From positions 1 through 20,653 of IMG/VR virus record IMGVR_UViG_3300021425_000235: a DNA stretch of 20,653 nt; one strand, given 5' to 3'. The position numbers and the translations under genes are program-made. Shown in pieces: positions 10,278-20,637 of this stretch. The DNA comes from a virus. The notes below the pieces were generated by a model. That model did no database searches and was not told the DNA's origin. It worked only from the letters and a program-made list of their open reading frames with translations. Within the stretch, counting starts at the first letter, position 1. Each line of letters opens with the position of its first letter.

Positions 10278-10511
10278 ATGGATATTATTACTAGCGTAAA
10301 GGGTTGGGTCGGCAAACTTGCTGAACTTGGCGTAAGTCTCCTTGCCCTTACAATCGTAGCTGAGCTTCTTGGTCTCGGCGCAGTTCCATTCATGCCAGAA
10401 GGCGTAAGTGTAATTAGTAATGTGACAGGCGTAGTTGATGGACTTGGTTCATCCGGTCTTGTCGGGTTGTTGGCAGTATGGGTTCTTTGGGCCATCTGGC
10501 AGCGACGGTGA
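10278..10511 (+). CDS. Small membrane protein, two predicted helices (holin-like?)
   Basis: A 77-residue protein with a strong ribosome site (GGAGG 5 nt before the ATG). After a short amphipathic start (MDIITSVKGWVGKLAELG) there is a hydrophobic stretch at about residues 18-36 (VSLLALTIVAELLGLGAVPF), a glycine-rich linker (ISNVTGVVDGLGSSG) and a second hydrophobic stretch at about 60-74 (LVGLLAVWVLWAIW), ending in QRR. This suggests two membrane helices with a positively charged end. It is the only gene here with a pure late promoter and is closed by a terminator, so it is expressed late, in keeping with a holin or a membrane or virion component. Small size and two helices alone do not prove a holin. 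Confidence 0.72.
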   Translation: MDIITSVKGWVGKLAELGVSLLALTIVAELLGLGAVPFMPEGVSVISNVTGVVDGLGSSGLVGLLAVWVLWAIWQRR

Positions 10512-10534: not shown

Positions 10535-10564
10535 AAGGGGGGCTATTTCAGTCCCCCTTTTTTT
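10535..10564 (+). terminator. Rho-independent terminator after the membrane protein gene
   Basis: A 10-bp stem (AAGGGGGGCT pairing with AGTCCCCCTT, one G-T pair) with loop ATTTC, followed by a T-run into 10564. It separates the membrane gene from the synthetase gene, for which I see no clear promoter in the 27 nt that remain. Confidence 0.88.
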
Positions 10565-10591: not shown

Positions 10592-11407
10592 ATGACACAG
10601 TTAATTGATCCAACGAAATTTACAAATGCAGTAAGCAAATTAAGAACATTCTTTATGGAAAAAGGTTTCGAAGAAGTTCATACACAAAACAGACTTAGCA
10701 TTTTAGCAGCATGTGAAGACCCATTTAATGTTGCCACCTACAAATATGAAGGCCGTGTATGGCCATTGCCACAGACAGGTCAGATGTGGTTAGAACACGA
10801 ATTACTTACTAAACCTTCTTCAAAAGGTTTTTTTTGTGTCTCAACTTCTTACAGACAAGAACCTAATGCTATTCCGGGCAGACACGATACAATCTTTCCA
10901 ATGTTTGAATTTGAAATGCCGGGTGATATTAATGACCTTGAAGCAATGGAACACGAACTGTGCGAGTATATGGGATTTGGTGATATCACTGGTAAGACCT
11001 ATGCTGAGTGGCAGAAAGAATATAATGTAGATGGTGAACTAGAAGACGAACACGAAAAGAAGATGTATCAAGAATACGGTTCTACAATGATCAAAGACTT
11101 CCCTGAGTTTACTTCACCGTTTTGGAACATGTCCAGATACGAAGATGGAGTAACATCCAAAAAGATTGATGTTATCTTGGGTGGTATGGAAACTATTGGT
11201 TCAGCGGAACGATCTACAGATGTTAAACAGATGAGAGATACATTCCATACGATTGCAAATGGTGAGTATGCTAACTTACTGTTTGATTTGTTTGGTAGAG
11301 GACGTGTTGAAAACGAATTGGAAGAGTTTTTGAAGTATGACTTCTTCCCTAGAGTTGGTGGTGGTATTGGCATGACTCGTATGATTGCTGCACTAGACAA
11401 ACTCTAA
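10592..11407 (+). CDS. Class II aminoacyl-tRNA-synthetase-like catalytic core (Asp/Asn type)
   Basis: A 271-residue protein with the class II adenylate-forming fold. Motif 2 is YRQEPNAIPGRHDTIFPMFE (R88, E90; the Arg activates ATP). The segment GGMETIGSAER near 198 resembles the Asp/Asn enzyme loop, and motif 3 is GGGIGMTR (R263). TGQMWLE near 62 recalls the substrate-site segment of Asp/AsnRS. Full enzymes have over 430 residues including an anticodon-binding domain; here the protein is only the catalytic core. It could charge a tRNA through acceptor contacts alone, be an asparagine synthetase of the archaeal AspRS-like kind, or modify another molecule. A tRNA with anticodon GTT starts 9 nt after its stop on the same strand, which favours a tRNA-linked role. 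Confidence 0.82.
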   Translation: MTQLIDPTKFTNAVSKLRTFFMEKGFEEVHTQNRLSILAACEDPFNVATYKYEGRVWPLPQTGQMWLEHELLTKPSSKGFFCVSTSYRQEPNAIPGRHDTIFPMFEFEMPGDINDLEAMEHELCEYMGFGDITGKTYAEWQKEYNVDGELEDEHEKKMYQEYGSTMIKDFPEFTSPFWNMSRYEDGVTSKKIDVILGGMETIGSAERSTDVKQMRDTFHTIANGEYANLLFDLFGRGRVENELEEFLKYDFFPRVGGGIGMTRMIAALDKL

Positions 11408-11416
11408 AAAGAACAA

Positions 11417-11502
11417 TCCGGGGTGGTGAAATAGGTAAACACGCACGACCGTTTATCGTGTGCTTAATAGGCTTGAAGGTTCGATTCCTTCTCCCGGAGC
11501 CA
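11417..11502 (+). tRNA. Unusual tRNA, anticodon GTT (Asn) on a long-variable-arm body
   Basis: An 86-nt cloverleaf with encoded CCA. Acceptor TCCGGGG/TCCCGGA; D arm GTG/CAC with an 11-nt loop holding GG; anticodon stem CACGA/TCGTG (five pairs) with loop CCGTTTA; T arm GAAGG/CCTTC with loop TTCGATT. The anticodon position reads GTT (11451-11453). G73 and the U1-A72 pair also fit tRNA-Asn. Yet the D arm is nearly that of tRNA-Leu, and the variable region is 14 nt (11461-11474), which is type II (Leu, Ser, Tyr) and not Asn. Position 33 is C instead of the almost universal T, and 37 is T instead of A. It may be a functional odd tRNA-Asn, a drifting relic of tRNA-Leu, or a tRNA-like RNA with another use. 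Confidence 0.82.
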
Positions 11503-11504
11503 AT

Positions 11505-11537
11505 AAAAAGAGGGAGTTTTTTGCTCCCTCTTTTTTT
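11505..11537 (+). terminator. Bidirectional terminator after the synthetase-tRNA unit
   Basis: A stem of AAAGAGGGAG pairing with CTCCCTCTTT, loop TTTTTTG, then a T-run on the plus strand. The minus strand also gives a T-rich tract after the stem, so it can end the convergent minus-strand unit at 11569 as well. Confidence 0.9.
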
Positions 11538-12629: not shown

Positions 12630-12830
12630 TTATTTTTTTCCAACTACTTTACAGTCTATCATGAATACCTGATATGTATCATCTGGACCAGCATTGTTTT
12701 TTAGTCTGCTATATTCATCCATTGCCTCATAGTAAGGCAGTCTGGCGGACACCGTTGTAGGAGGCGCCCACCAGTCTCTGTCATCATAATGGATGACAAC
12801 ATAGAGATTGGTTAATTCGGCAGTGATGCC
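12630..12830 (-). CDS. Reading frame without a normal start codon, protein-like
   Basis: The frame is open for 66 codons between an in-frame TGA at 12831-12833 and TAA at 12630-12632, and the terminator follows at once. The translation from about 12800 looks like a real small protein: NLYVVIHYDDRDWW, then APPTTVSARLPYYEAMDEYSRLKN, then DTYQVFMIDCKVVGKK (strands and one helix). There is no ATG before residue 30 of that stretch, nor a GTG or TTG with a ribosome site. It overlaps the 3' end of the BMP gene. Options are a rare start codon coupled to BMP termination (an ATC is available near 12827), a frameshift from BMP, a sequencing error, or a decayed gene. Confidence 0.4.
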   Translation of the reverse strand, partial: GITAELTNLYVVIHYDDRDWWAPPTTVSARLPYYEAMDEYSRLKNNAGPDDTYQVFMIDCKVVGKK

Positions 12831-13915
12831 TCAATTCCTTCTACATACCAATCCATAGACAGCAGAGTTGGCCAGTCATCCAAATGTTCTGCACCAGCAG
12901 CACACTCATCAGGAACAGAACCATCTTGCTTCAGTAGACCTTCACATGGGAATGCATGACGATCACCATTTGCCAGTGCTGCCTCAAGCGCCAATGCTTC
13001 TGCTACAAGGTCTTCACCCATAGCATCTACATTGTAACTCTCAAGAGCAACCATGCCTACTTCACCACCTTTACCGTCTTTAGTGAAACCCCACCAAGTA
13101 TCGCCACCAGTCCATGTGCCGTCCATTACCTGACCTACACGGTCAACATAGTAAGAATCCCAATCATCTACAATAGAAACAAGATGCGCATTAGGACCAA
13201 AGGCAGACATGTTAGATGCCTGACCAAATGCATAGACACCAGCATTTTCTGCTACTTGTACAGGTGCAGGAGAGTCAGTATGCTGCACAATAATATCAGC
13301 ACCTTCGTCAATCAGTGCCTGTGCAGCACCAGCTTCCTTAGCAGGATCAAACCATGTATACAACCAAATAATATCTACTTCAATATCAGGGTTATGTTTC
13401 TGTGCTTCCAGCATGAATGCGTTAATACCACGCACTACTTCTGGAATAGGGAATGATGCAATATAACCAATTTTATTTGTTTCGGTCATATTAGCAGCAA
13501 TCATACCTTGGACTACACGACCTTCATAGAATCGTGCAGAGAAAGTAGACATATTGTCAGTGTCACGAATGTAACCTGTAGCATGTTCAAATGCTACTTC
13601 TGGATAGTTGGCAGCAACTTCGTTAGTTGCATCCATATAACCAAAAGAGGTTGTAAAGATAATATCATGACCAGTTTCAGCAAGCTGAGTGATTGCCTCT
13701 ACTGCTTCTGGACCTTCTGGAACCATTTCCAAATAGGTAGTAGACACGTCAGGACCATAGGCTTCTTCTACAGCAAGACGACCAACATCATGTCGGTATG
13801 TCCAGCCAAGATCACCAATTGGACCTACATAAATGAAACCTACTTTGGTTTCAGCAAATGCAGCAGTTGCAGTTGCAATAGTGAGTGTTAGGGATGCTAG
13901 AATATTCTTAAGCAT
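12812..13915 (-). CDS. BMP-family ABC-transporter substrate-binding protein
   Basis: A 367-residue periplasmic binding protein of the BMP/PnrA (Med) type, whose characterised members bind purine nucleosides and related compounds. The signal peptide MLKNILASLTLTIATATAAFA-E has a basic start, a hydrophobic core and an AFA cleavage site, with no lipobox Cys. The mature part starts TKVGFIYVGPIGDLGWTYRHD, the family N-terminal strand and ligand loop; SFGYMDA, ARFYEGRVVQGMIA and DIIVQHTDSPAPVQVAE follow as the usual two-lobe fold. The phage gene would supply a binding protein to a host permease, as no permease for it is visible. It follows PstS across a terminator. The ligand cannot be fixed from sequence. 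Confidence 0.9.
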   Translation of the reverse strand: MLKNILASLTLTIATATAAFAETKVGFIYVGPIGDLGWTYRHDVGRLAVEEAYGPDVSTTYLEMVPEGPEAVEAITQLAETGHDIIFTTSFGYMDATNEVAANYPEVAFEHATGYIRDTDNMSTFSARFYEGRVVQGMIAANMTETNKIGYIASFPIPEVVRGINAFMLEAQKHNPDIEVDIIWLYTWFDPAKEAGAAQALIDEGADIIVQHTDSPAPVQVAENAGVYAFGQASNMSAFGPNAHLVSIVDDWDSYYVDRVGQVMDGTWTGGDTWWGFTKDGKGGEVGMVALESYNVDAMGEDLVAEALALEAALANGDRHAFPCEGLLKQDGSVPDECAAGAEHLDDWPTLLSMDWYVEGIEASLPN

Positions 13916-13942
13916 GGTTTGCAGTTTCCTTGTTTTATATTT

Positions 13943-13974
13943 AAAAAAGAAAAGGGAACATAAGTTCCCCTTTC
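13943..13974 (-). terminator. Terminator or attenuator between PstS and the BMP gene
   Basis: Minus-strand stem AAAGGGGAAC/GTTCCCTTTT (one G-T pair) with loop TTAT, then CTTTTTT. A TATAAA lies just after it but without a good -35 box, so BMP expression may depend on read-through. Confidence 0.8.
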
Positions 13975-13985
13975 CAACTTATCCC

Positions 13986-14975
13986 TTAGAGGGATTCGAG
14001 CGCCTCATACATAGCGTCTTGATCATCATCCCCACCGGGAATCAGACCTTCATCTACCAGAGGACCATCAGGACCAGCCATGAGTACAAACTCTTCAGAG
14101 TACTCTGCCAGACCTTCAATTACTCCAATGTGGTTATTCTTCACATAGAAGTAGAGAGAACGAGAGATTGGATAATCACCAGAGGCAATATTTTCAAACT
14201 CAGGTTCTACATCATTAATTACAGCACCTTTAATAAGGTCTGCATTGTTCTGTAAAAAGGAGAAACCAAAAATTCCTACAGCATATTCATCTTGTGTAAG
14301 CTGACCAATAATCAGGTTATCGTTTTCACCAGACTCAACATATACACCATCAGCACGAACCTTTGCTGACTTATATACATCTTTAGAACAACCAAGATGC
14401 TTCAGACCATCCTGTACTACCAGTTCCATGTATGCATCACGAGTACCAGAAGATGATGGCGGACCGAGAAGCATAATGTCAAAGTCTGGAAGTGCTGGAT
14501 TGATATCAGACCACTTAGTATATGGATTAGCAGTCATAGAAGTGCAGTCCGCATTTGGAATTTCTTCTACAGTTGCCAGTGCCAACTCTTCAATGGTGAA
14601 CGCAAGGTCTACACCATCAATAGAGTTAGAGATAACGATACCGTCGTAGCCAATCATAAATTCAGTAAACTCTACACCGTTAGCGGCACAGGTTTCTGCT
14701 TCAGATGATTTCATTGCACGGGATGCATTAGTTACATCTGGGTGGTCAAGACCAACACCAGAACAGAACAACTTCATACCGCCACCAGAGCCAGTAGACT
14801 CAATAACTGGAGTGTTGAAGTCAGATGCTTCCCCAAACGTTTCAGCAACTTTAGAAGCGAATGGGTAAACGGTAGATGAACCAACAATAGAAATAGTGTT
14901 GGCACGATCAGCGACTGCTGCGGACGTGGCGATTAAACTCACGAACATTGCAATCATTACGTTAAATGCTCTCAT
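13986..14975 (-). CDS. pstS: Phosphate-binding periplasmic protein (PstS-like)
   Basis: A 329-residue high-affinity phosphate-binding protein. The signal peptide MRAFNVMIAMFVSLIATSAAVA is followed by NTISIVGSSTVYPFASKVAETF, the classical PstS start in which GSSTVYPF contributes to the phosphate site. TGSGGGMKLFCSG and NASRAMK follow, then GPPSSSGTRDAYMEL, the second phosphate loop (SSGTR), and the late YFYVKNNHIG. All ligand segments are intact. It is separated by 21 nt from the PiT permease, so the two are one operon. pstS is a known phage-borne metabolic gene in marine phages, thought to keep phosphate uptake going during infection. No PHO-box could be identified with confidence. Confidence 0.95.
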   Translation of the reverse strand: MRAFNVMIAMFVSLIATSAAVADRANTISIVGSSTVYPFASKVAETFGEASDFNTPVIESTGSGGGMKLFCSGVGLDHPDVTNASRAMKSSEAETCAANGVEFTEFMIGYDGIVISNSIDGVDLAFTIEELALATVEEIPNADCTSMTANPYTKWSDINPALPDFDIMLLGPPSSSGTRDAYMELVVQDGLKHLGCSKDVYKSAKVRADGVYVESGENDNLIIGQLTQDEYAVGIFGFSFLQNNADLIKGAVINDVEPEFENIASGDYPISRSLYFYVKNNHIGVIEGLAEYSEEFVLMAGPDGPLVDEGLIPGGDDDQDAMYEALESL

Positions 14976-14996
14976 CTTTTTCTCCTTTAAAGAACA

Positions 14997-15947
14997 TTAT
15001 TGTGGTTGTAACAGTGTGTGAATCATAATCACAATACCAACAGAAGCAGCAAGTCCAATCATCATCTTAAAGAAGTCTTTACCAACAAGTGGGAAGACTG
15101 AACGGAACTTACGTTTCTGAGTAAAGCTTGCGATTGCTAATTCACGACCTGTTAACAGACCAATGAATACCCAAGTGGTAGACATTGGAATATCGTTCCA
15201 CTCCTTGAAGAACCACAAGATCAAGAAGTAGAATAGGTCAATGATAGTTGCGGAACGCACATACCGAGTATTGTGTTTCTCCAATACGACGGTTTGAATA
15301 CGTCCACCATTTTCTCTGAACATCCAGTAAAGACCAGATACAAAAATAACAGAGATTGCGAACATCATTTCAATCGGGACTTGACGTGGCAGGAACACCG
15401 CAATGTTTGCCATGTCGTGGCTGAGCCATGTATACCACAAGAACCCTGTAGTTACCCACTGAGCAACTACCCAATACTTTTTGTGTTCATCCTTTACAGG
15501 ATTAGACTCATCCAAGAGTTTACTGATAACAAACCAGATACCATAGGCAGATACAGCAGCAATAGCATATCCCATAATCGACTTGACCAGCATCTTTTCC
15601 AACACAAAGGTTGAAGCAAATGCAGATAGGACAAGGAACGATGTAGACACAGGAACACCAAATCTAGTCAGTACAAGGAGTACCGCTGGAGCGAGTGCAT
15701 GATACCATTGAATTTCTTGGAAGGGAATTTTGTTAAGTCGGCCGTAGGAGATATCACCTCCATTTGAATACCAACCGAACCAAATAGTAAAGAGTAGGAC
15801 TGCTGACGCTGCTGCCCACATAATCATACGATTTGTTTTTTGATTTGAAGCGATCCATGTTCCGAGCGTCTGAACAGAATCGTTAGCGATTACTGAGTAG
15901 GATGCAAGTAGGAAACCTACAATCATCCAGATTGAAATATAGTCCAT
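14997..15947 (-). CDS. PiT-family inorganic phosphate transporter
   Basis: A 316-residue membrane protein with about eight to ten hydrophobic segments. The two inverted half-signatures of the PiT (PHO4) family can be seen: VIANDSVQTLGTW near residue 20 with GVPVSTSF about 75 residues later, and LSHDMANIAVFLPR near 175 with IPMSTTW about 75 residues later. The paired aspartates and the P.ST. loops are the phosphate and cation sites. It is much shorter than E. coli PitA (about 500). It would import phosphate with H+ or Na+ across the inner membrane. It precedes pstS by 21 nt, which gives one phage operon a permease of one system and a binding protein of another. Confidence 0.82.
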   Translation of the reverse strand: MDYISIWMIVGFLLASYSVIANDSVQTLGTWIASNQKTNRMIMWAAASAVLLFTIWFGWYSNGGDISYGRLNKIPFQEIQWYHALAPAVLLVLTRFGVPVSTSFLVLSAFASTFVLEKMLVKSIMGYAIAAVSAYGIWFVISKLLDESNPVKDEHKKYWVVAQWVTTGFLWYTWLSHDMANIAVFLPRQVPIEMMFAISVIFVSGLYWMFRENGGRIQTVVLEKHNTRYVRSATIIDLFYFLILWFFKEWNDIPMSTTWVFIGLLTGRELAIASFTQKRKFRSVFPLVGKDFFKMMIGLAASVGIVIMIHTLLQPQ

Positions 15948-18764: not shown

Positions 18765-20242
18765 ACCTTAACCTCAAAGATTTCAAAATCAAACTCTTCT
18801 TTTTTATATATTTTCATACGTTCAATCGCATGAATAAGAGTATAGTTCTTTTTCTGCCTATAGTGCATATCATCCATCAGGTCAAAGAGTACAGTAGTTC
18901 TACCGTCTTCAGACTTTCTAAGACCACGACCAATAGACTGCAATACTTTTACCTGAGATTTAGAAGGTGATGCAAAGATGATATTGTGTAGATTTTTGAT
19001 ATTTACTCCTGTAGAGAACGTTCCTAAGCTGGCAACAATAATAGCATTCTTTTGTTTTTCTACAATACCACGGATTTCTTCACGGACTTCAGCATCTACT
19101 TCACCTGATACATAGAACACTTTTCTTTTCTTGTGTGCTTTGTCTTTGATAAGTTCATAGAGTGGTTTACCGTGTTTTTCGACATATTGAAACAATACTA
19201 GCGTATTGCCTTCCTGCTCTAATGCTAGATTAGTAATTAGTCTATTGCGTTTGATATTACCAACTATATAGTCAATCTCATAGTGGTAGTCTTTACTATT
19301 GACAATATCCTTAGAGACTTCATCAGGGTATTTTAGAGCAAGAATATTAATCTTTAGGTCTGCTAGTGTATCTTCATCCATAAGTTTTCGTGTAGTAGTA
19401 ACTTTATATACTCTGCCGAATAACCCTTCCAAAACAAGTTTGTGCGTCTGTGTGCCGTCTAGAGTGCCAGTAGTGCCTATTCTATACTCTGCTTCTCTAG
19501 ATTTGTTCATCAGGCCTGATAAAGACTTTGCTTTGAAGTTATGGACTTCATCACCAAAGATACAACCAAACTGTTCAAACCATGTAGAAGGTAACTTATA
19601 GATTGACTGCCATGTAGAAATGAATACTCTCTGTGGAATATTATTCTTAGGCATACCAGAATAGATTCTGTGACAGACTTCTGCTGCTTCTAAACCATAG
19701 TTATCAAAGTCAGAGAACATCTGCTGAACAAGTGATGTAGTAGGAACAACAATAAGAACACGTTTGTTATAGTGTTCCAGATACCACATCATCAGAACAT
19801 AGATGATAAGAGACTTACCTGAACCTGTAGGAGACAGCAGAATAGCACGTTTTGACCTTAGTGCCTGACAGATAGCATCAAACTGATAGTCTCTTACTTC
19901 AAAAGGTAAGTTCAGTTTCTGAATAAACTCATAGACTTCTTTAGGGTCTACTAACGATTTAGTGTCAGGTGCGCCATACTGATTGTCATATTCTACTTCT
20001 AATGTATAGTTTCTTGGTTTGATAAAGTCTGACAGATATTCCCAGAGACCAACAGGCAGTTCATTATTGCGGTTATTAAATAGTCTGGTCTTACCGTCCC
20101 ATTTACCACTCTTATAAGCTGGCATGTATTTGTAACCCGGAGTTTCAAATGAGAAGTAATCTGTCAACTCATTTGAAACATGTGGTTCACACTGGATTTC
20201 TAGTGCAGAATAGTTTTTCTGTCTAACTAATAAATCTGTCAT
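18761..20242 (-). CDS. uvsW: UvsW-like superfamily 2 helicase
   Basis: A 493-residue SF2 helicase; T4 UvsW unwinds branched DNA and R-loops and helps switch from origin-dependent to recombination-dependent replication. An N-terminal substrate domain of about 110 residues contains YMPAYKSGKWDGKTRLF. Q-motif-like VRDYQFDAI is near 117, Walker A SPTGSGKS at 137-144, motif Ia VVPTTSLVQQ, DEVH at 231-234, motif III GTTGTL, motif V SLGTFSTGVNIKNL, and motif VI QSIGRGLRKS near 440. All ATPase motifs are present. It starts in a TAATG overlap with the phosphoribosyltransferase and overlaps the acidic gene by 4 nt. Length and domain order match T4 UvsW (about 500). Confidence 0.96.
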   Translation of the reverse strand: MTDLLVRQKNYSALEIQCEPHVSNELTDYFSFETPGYKYMPAYKSGKWDGKTRLFNNRNNELPVGLWEYLSDFIKPRNYTLEVEYDNQYGAPDTKSLVDPKEVYEFIQKLNLPFEVRDYQFDAICQALRSKRAILLSPTGSGKSLIIYVLMMWYLEHYNKRVLIVVPTTSLVQQMFSDFDNYGLEAAEVCHRIYSGMPKNNIPQRVFISTWQSIYKLPSTWFEQFGCIFGDEVHNFKAKSLSGLMNKSREAEYRIGTTGTLDGTQTHKLVLEGLFGRVYKVTTTRKLMDEDTLADLKINILALKYPDEVSKDIVNSKDYHYEIDYIVGNIKRNRLITNLALEQEGNTLVLFQYVEKHGKPLYELIKDKAHKKRKVFYVSGEVDAEVREEIRGIVEKQKNAIIVASLGTFSTGVNIKNLHNIIFASPSKSQVKVLQSIGRGLRKSEDGRTTVLFDLMDDMHYRQKKNYTLIHAIERMKIYKKEEFDFEIFEVKV

Positions 20243-20637
20243 TATTTGAGGTTAGTTCGCATAGTAGATGGCATTTGAAACAGAACATTAATAGGACCAG
20301 ATACTACATCACGAGCAAACACTGCCCAACAAATAGTTTCATCATCAGGATAATGTTCAATCATATATTCCCTGAAACTAGTGCCTGTTGTATATACATC
20401 ATCTACAATCAGAACAGGGTCATCAGGATTACCTGTAGCAGATTCATTTAGAATATCGCCCAGACGTTTACCACCACGGGGAATACCTACTGCTTTACGA
20501 AACGAACGTGTCTCATACTCTAGGATCATCTTGGCAAGACAACGCCAATCATTCTCATAGAGTGCATCCATTTCAATCTTCCATCCTAGTTTATTACCAG
20601 CATGTGAAATAAAATCTTCGTCAACAAATAAAGCCAT
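20242..20637 (-). CDS. Phosphoribosyltransferase-like protein
   Basis: A 131-residue PRTase-fold protein. The PRPP-binding motif VLIVDDVYTTGTSF is complete, with the two acidic residues and the TTGTS loop, and an upstream GIPRGGKRLGD resembles the first PRPP-site loop. It is short compared with orotate or hypoxanthine PRTases (170-215) and lacks an obvious base-specific hood, so the substrate is unknown; it could salvage a base or be a regulatory relative. The ATG at 20637 has GGGGGT 6 nt upstream. It overlaps UvsW by one base, so it is translated together with the helicase. Its promoter would be outside the window. Confidence 0.87.
   Translation of the reverse strand: MALFVDEDFISHAGNKLGWKIEMDALYENDWRCLAKMILEYETRSFRKAVGIPRGGKRLGDILNESATGNPDDPVLIVDDVYTTGTSFREYMIEHYPDDETICWAVFARDVVSGPINVLFQMPSTMRTNLK

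Follow-up and report, generated by a model that had tools for sequence, protein, structure and literature searches.

The stretch of DNA analysed here (the window) is a complete virus record of 20,653 bases in which T4-like replication genes occupy the minus strand. On the plus strand, a gene for a synthetase-like protein—here called gene X—is followed, 9 nt after its stop codon, by a tRNA (Table 1). An initial annotation of this DNA had described a 271-residue synthetase core devoid of an anticodon-binding domain, a GTT tRNA 9 nt behind it, and a terminator closing the unit, all of which was borne out by ORF calling, Pfam, ARAGORN, Rfam, and structural modelling; a further terminator-like hairpin was found upstream of gene X. 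The pair forms a plus-strand unit, as had been claimed, but does not stand alone on an otherwise minus-strand genome, since a second short plus-strand ORF (10278–10511) precedes it. A series of minus-strand genes at 12812–15947 encodes, as read from the sequences, a probable substrate-binding transport protein, a PstS-like protein, and a PitA-like phosphate transporter, and PitA-like genes often neighbour gene X at other viral loci too. The PyrE-like gene of the window was dropped as specific support for a role in pyrimidine synthesis, since phage P-SSM7 has T4-GC139 at the same spot beside uvsW. By this position, the window gene is probably T4-GC139, the 'methylamine utilization protein' of P-SSM7, and, instead of belonging to the pair, it may be a gene of general occurrence in marine T4-like phages.

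Table 1. Features of the gene X locus and related elements of the window
Feature	Position	Strand	Basis
Terminator-like hairpin just 5′ of gene X	10535–10559	+	
Gene X, 271-aa free-standing class II AsnRS-like catalytic core	10592–11407	+	ORF call, Pfam, phrog_29758, AF2 model, fold search
Motif 2 region of gene X protein, STSYRQEPNAIPGRHDTIFPMFEFE; R88 and E90 invariant	10841–10915	+	Alignment of 63 viral and cellular homologues
Motif 3 region of gene X protein, RVGGGIGMTRMIAAL; R263 invariant	11351–11395	+	Alignment of 63 viral and cellular homologues
Type II tRNA, anticodon GUU, U1-A72, G73, encoded CCA	11417–11502	+	ARAGORN; Rfam RF00005, 46 bits
Anticodon GTT in loop CCGTTTA (C33, U37)	11451–11453	+	ARAGORN and tRNA alignment
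Long variable arm, TGCTTAATAGGCTT	11461–11474	+	14 nt; tRNA alignment and covariation
Terminator-like hairpin directly 3′ of the tRNA, closing the unit	11505–11535	+	
PyrE-like phosphoribosyltransferase adjoining uvsW	20242–20637	−	Family of PRTases in cellular gene X-pyr operons, E=1.6e-39

The gene X protein matches the Pfam family tRNA-synt_2 (PF00152, E=5.5e-14) over residues 12–268 and phrog_29758, a family of 'unknown function', with E=8.5e-131. A homologue is annotated as 'tRNA ligase' in the Prochlorococcus phages P-SSM2, P-SSM5, and P-SSM7; the homologue of P-SSM2/P-SSM7 is T4-GC194, which Sullivan et al. 2010 list without comment (PMC3037559). PF00152 is the sole Pfam domain, and an AlphaFold2 model based on 63 relatives consists of one catalytic domain (pLDDT 92.5), the N-terminal OB-fold that serves as anticodon-binding domain being absent from both. 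The solved folds closest to this model are those of AsnRS (Z 27, 2.1 Å over 245 residues), with AspRS close behind and archaeal AsnA and GenX next (Z about 23–24; about 23.6 for AsnA). When the PDB was searched by sequence, the single protein gave marginal matches only and the profile gave AsnRS and AspRS. The initial annotation had assigned the protein to an undivided Asp/Asn type. Its class II motifs 2 and 3 were confirmed, their residues R88, E90, and R263 being invariant in the aligned homologues; the type could be narrowed to AsnRS, because an invariant L67-E68 (in TGQMWLE) aligns to the AsnRS residues at a site where AspRS has Lys-Gln (profile alignment, Brugia AsnRS versus AspRS). The protein thus carries the Leu/Val-Glu signature of an Asn-type pocket, and a conserved R207 aligns to the Asx-binding arginine. 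Identity to AsnRS amounts to 20%, and the full-length AsnRS model TIGR00457 was not matched (26.3 bits versus a cut-off of 342.6). The models for AsnA, including PRK06462, were likewise not matched, with 14–15 bits for the window protein and 20–26 bits for cellular homologues versus cut-offs of 322–389. Viral gene X proteins, with a pI of about 4.7 and a net charge of about −18, are strongly acidic, which is atypical for tRNA binders.

Asparaginyl-tRNA synthetases read GUU, G73, and U1-A72, and these elements are invariant in all 126 unique partner tRNAs. In this respect the tRNA is Asn-like, as initially described; the remainder of the molecule is not. Rather than an ordinary tRNA-Asn, the partner is a type II tRNA with a tRNA-Leu-like D-arm and body and a long variable arm, the window copy having a variable arm of 14 nt and the anticodon loop CCGUUUA with C33 and U37. 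Position 37 is a pyrimidine in 115/126 partner tRNAs and position 33 is not U in 14/126, versus 0/66 in either case among the other tRNAs from the loci first collected, all of which have U33 and a purine at 37 (five U37 tRNAs in the comparison listing are members of the partner family and stand outside the 66). As a family, the partner tRNAs depart from the tRNA-Asn set of class I body with short variable loop, U33, and purine 37. Pyrimidine 37 and a non-U33 are poor for decoding, and, judged from its sequence, the partner tRNA has lost decoding features. Its variable region ranges from 11 to 39 nt, and a shorter 79-nt form, in which GTT is kept, occurs in four divergent relatives. In an alignment of 47 partner tRNAs, for the register of which pairing of the acceptor stem was required, 98.3% of pair cells are paired, and both sides of a pair have changed in 177 cells as opposed to 35 in shuffles. 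The outer pairs of the variable arm covary, and some arms reach about 10 pairs. The A4 long-arm tRNAs (e.g., L029 4676–4776) have variable arms of 28–39 nt, an unusual length for a tRNA, forming as many as about 10 base pairs with a CTGCAA loop.

The adjacency of gene and tRNA recurs in other phage genomes, as a search of the kind suggested by the initial annotation revealed. For 183 distinct viral homologues, 140 nt or more of the downstream sequence was available; a type II tRNA lies no more than 20 nt from the gene X stop codon in 155 of these, 12 more have one within about 220 nt, and four of the rest have the 79-nt form. A thirteenth case of a more distant tRNA, L270, proved to be a false call. 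About a dozen of the 183 homologues (about 11) are without any such tRNA. In the reverse direction, a 29-nt tRNA pattern, which covers one common tRNA subclass and was searched irrespective of the protein, led to 108 sites with enough upstream sequence, and gene X lies directly upstream at all 108. Within this sample, the tRNA depends on gene X and gene X does not depend on the tRNA. In viruses, a dedicated enzyme–RNA pair, as initially claimed, has strong support, the association exceeding chance by far; it does not extend to cells. Two loci deviate in their annotation or layout. Behind gene X of L091 (4859–4886), the tRNA is cut to two acceptor-stem halves plus CCA (TCCGGGG TCCCCCGGAGCCA), representing either a clean deletion or an assembly artefact. 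In P-SSM2 (L082), the tRNA is found directly behind gene X at 162083–162171 (L082 3814–3902), whereas GenBank places the tRNA-Asn of this phage at 164094–164179 (L082 5825–5910).

A scan of bacterial and archaeal genomes yielded many relatives of gene X, 54–65% identical, in Patescibacteria, Bacteroidota, Pasteurella atlantica, Midichloriaceae, and others. An adjacent partner tRNA is essentially absent from these cellular relatives, the exceptions being virus-like contigs. The initial annotation had named the routine occurrence of homologues without the tRNA as grounds for giving up the partnership; such occurrence is the rule among cellular homologues and not among viral ones. A pattern combining the D-loop with TGTT matched 17 cellular genomes no more commonly than its reversed control and gave no recognisable tRNA, and the score of the tRNA covariance model R1 is uninformative for cellular genomes because this model also matches cellular tRNA-Leu.

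Many cellular relatives reside beside genes for OMP decarboxylase, orotate phosphoribosyltransferase, dihydroorotate dehydrogenase, or PRPP synthetase. At 28/74 cellular loci, the pyr-cluster queries matched a neighbouring gene, mostly pyrD, pyrE, or pyrF and at a few just ArgH or an amidohydrolase; unbiased clustering of the neighbours of cellular loci placed the PyrE/F family first (21 loci) and PyrD second (17 loci). Pyrimidine neighbours also occur in phages, at 17/196 viral loci, most having none: L050 has the order pyrD–gene X–tRNA–pyrE-like, L024 and L044 are similar, L088 and L094 have a pyrD-like neighbour, L075 has PRPP synthetase, and in L341 a pyrE-like gene lies right behind the gene X tRNA.

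The genomes that carry gene X in cells are depleted of the enzymes that precede PyrD. PyrB (aspartate carbamoyltransferase) exceeds the cut-off in 0/15 carriers versus 14/14 controls, and in 0/19 carrier genomes overall; weaker transcarbamylase matches occur in three of the 15, one of them beside CarB. CarB is missing from 17/19 carriers and PyrD is retained in 16/19, some of these genomes being MAGs, in which the absence of a gene may reflect incompleteness. The strict test of PyrB exclusion comes from one order with five carriers, that of Aureispira (149 genomes, 144 of them non-carriers), the order of G012 contributing a single carrier. In the Aureispira order, PyrB is lacking from 5/5 carriers and from 5/144 non-carriers (p=4e-7), and true CarB from 5/5 and 9/144, respectively (p=3.5e-6). 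The PyrC model is unmatched in 11/15 carriers, with a twelfth containing only a fragment and the search covering one of the two dihydroorotase types (TIGR00856 being the other); carriers in the Aureispira order keep a lower-scoring PyrC-like protein (about 220–261 bits). In the order of G005, the large genomes G033, G047, G070, and G098 are without PyrB, CarB, or gene X, and are either auxotrophs or users of yet another pyrimidine entry. Phylogenetic profile and synteny together support the view that gene X would substitute for PyrB, and usually CarB, in cells.

The gene X enzyme is probably not a translation enzyme, and the gene X–tRNA pair may well be a phage pyrimidine-entry module, a reading that falls a little short of being probable. 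Its parts differ in strength. It is likely, going by gene content and gene order, that in cells the AsnRS-like adenylating core replaces carbamoyl phosphate synthetase and aspartate carbamoyltransferase, often together with the canonical dihydroorotase, and feeds PyrD, PyrE, and PyrF. In phages, the enzyme very probably works with its dedicated tRNA, which was never found alone, the adjacency holding in both directions. The chemistry is more doubtful. Asparagine would be activated to asparaginyl-AMP and would react with bicarbonate to form an N-carboxyanhydride, the C2 carbonyl of which would be attacked by the side-chain amide to give L-dihydroorotate. Aminoacyl adenylates go through N-carboxyanhydrides if CO2 is present (PMC6462974). 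By such a reaction, carbamoyl phosphate would be unnecessary, every ring atom would be accounted for, and the dihydroorotate would have a free carboxylate. Alternatively, the product could be carbamoyl-aspartate formed by another route, with PyrC still required, in keeping with the PyrC-like protein of carriers in the Aureispira order. The function of the tRNA can be proposed only tentatively: it would hold asparagine for the gene X reaction, charged by either the host AsnRS or the gene X enzyme, and would act largely outside translation. A role as asparagine carrier or donor fits better than decoding because the identity set is kept, decoding features are lost, and the enzyme accompanies the tRNA wherever the latter was found. 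The tRNA is not necessarily part of the reaction, since cells and about 11 viral homologues are without it; cells and a few phages would instead use ordinary tRNA-Asn or free asparagine, and the enzyme, possessing its own ATP-binding arginines, may need no charged tRNA. Taken as a whole, a portable phage unit for a tRNA-assisted, carbamoyl-phosphate-independent route from bicarbonate and asparagine, free or on a non-decoding tRNA, to dihydroorotate, bypassing CarAB, PyrB, and PyrC, is rather unlikely to be correct in every part.

The purposes put forward by the initial annotation, orthogonal charging or replacement of cleaved host tRNA-Asn, are not favoured, given the pyrD/pyrE/pyrF context and the substitution for PyrB and CarB. 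An orthogonal AsnRS:tRNA pair, in which the type II tRNA receives asparagine from its own minimal enzyme and lets the phage decode AAC/AAU without recourse to the host, would agree with a pocket of AsnRS type, with motifs 2 and 3 being intact, with the constant presence of the enzyme beside the tRNA in the pattern sample, and with a long variable arm that would keep host synthetases apart. It would agree, too, with the invariant GUU, an anticodon of which a synthetase core devoid of an anticodon-binding domain would have no need. This explanation, also in a form with relaxed decoding, is nevertheless fairly unlikely: the closest cellular relatives have no tRNA and lie in pyrimidine clusters of genomes without PyrB and mostly without CarB, an anticodon loop with pyrimidine 37 or a non-U33 is bad for decoding and absent from the 66 other tRNAs, the variable arm differs greatly in length between family members, and the protein is strongly acidic. 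The same objections apply to a spare tRNA-Asn whose altered loop evades host anticodon nucleases and which the enzyme charges in its altered state. Phage tRNAs with anticodon-loop mutations have been proposed to escape host tRNases (PMC10264068), and loss of A37 would remove t6A. As nothing ties the cellular relatives to tRNA repair, a spare tRNA is improbable.

An enzyme that converts aspartate and ammonia into free asparagine, with the tRNA aiding the use of the product in translation, is quite improbable. Aminoacyl-tRNA synthetase paralogs are known to have been recruited to metabolic roles (AsnA, EpmA), and gene X resembles archaeal AsnA (AsnRS-related; PDB 3p8t, 3reu) and EpmA/GenX in being a free-standing class II core of similar size and fold and, probably, in acting outside translation. 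It differs from them by its weak sequence scores, its genomic context, and its associated tRNA. The production of free asparagine, which the initial annotation had named as a refuting outcome, is unsupported as far as membership of the AsnA family is concerned, since the model scores fall far below the cut-offs; moreover, the pocket is AsnRS-like rather than AspRS-like, and neither the loss of PyrB and CarB nor the pyr synteny would be explained. Finally, the tRNA might simply hitchhike behind gene X in a frozen gene order that serves no function. Variable phage regions often contain tRNAs (PMC3037559), and the homologues without a tRNA would be in line with this. Yet the identity set is invariant while the remainder of the tRNA diverges, compensatory changes exceed those in shuffles, and the adjacency is retained across very different neighbourhoods, with the tRNA depending on the gene throughout the reverse search, which together make hitchhiking highly improbable.

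As usually taught, pyrimidines are made by a single universal route that starts from carbamoyl phosphate and aspartate. By phylogenetic profile, gene X would fill the same metabolic slot as CarAB, PyrB, and perhaps PyrC, beside PyrD, PyrE, and PyrF, despite an unrelated fold, and most carriers are without carbamoyl phosphate synthetase. With AsnRS (class IIb) the protein shares the catalytic fold, motifs 2 and 3, the Asn-type pocket, and the Asx-binding Arg, and differs from it by the missing OB-fold domain, the low identity, a model score far under the cut-off, and cellular relatives in pyrimidine clusters that probably replace PyrB/CarB. PylRS/tRNA-Pyl and similar pairs likewise consist of a small class II enzyme and a linked, structurally unusual tRNA; the gene X tRNA, however, has the sense anticodon GUU, and the context of its enzyme family in cells is other than translation. 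Some tRNAs have roles outside translation, e.g., cell-wall tRNA-Gly, in which, as in the partner tRNA, identity elements are kept and ribosome features are lost; unlike tRNA-Gly, the gene X tRNA is tied to pyrimidine genes and its charging is putative. To our knowledge, no known system unites an AsnRS-like core with a dedicated tRNA at the entry to pyrimidine synthesis, and in the open-access literature searched, no account of the enzyme, of its pairing with a tRNA, or of another way into pyrimidines was found beyond the bare label 'tRNA ligase' for T4-GC194. By itself, the enzyme could count as a variant of the known recruitment of synthetase paralogs, the combination with tRNA and pyrimidine entry being apparently new. 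If correct, the proposed module would constitute a second pyrimidine route, present in bacteria and widespread in marine phages, would account for organisms in which pyrD/E/F occur in the absence of carAB/pyrB, and would alter models of how phages take over the nucleotide supply of the host; a tRNA dedicated to a pyrimidine pathway would be a new use of tRNA. If the pair serves translation instead, its small natural AsnRS and type II GUU tRNA would be of interest to builders of orthogonal translation systems.

In a phylogenetic tree with SH-aLRT supports from a quick run, in which the jumbo-phage rows form long branches, the tRNA-bearing viral sequences fall into two groups, and the CPR and Bacteroidota sequences lie outside them. 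Viral homologues lacking the tRNA occur at scattered places in the tree, suggesting that the tRNA was lost several times. The small operons of Pasteurella, Midichloriaceae, and a Rhodospirillaceae MAG (L118, L127, L145, L148, L149), with the order gene X–pyrF–pyrE-like(–pyrD-like), nest among the tRNA-bearing viral sequences, and this nesting suggests that the pyrimidine module may have moved between phages and cells. In L112, L130, L166, and L162, an ArgH-like lyase precedes gene X, at some of these loci together with an amidohydrolase, which in L112 and L166 belongs to the PRK06886 'hypothetical protein' family; lyase and amidohydrolase are possibly further parts of an unusual pyrimidine route.
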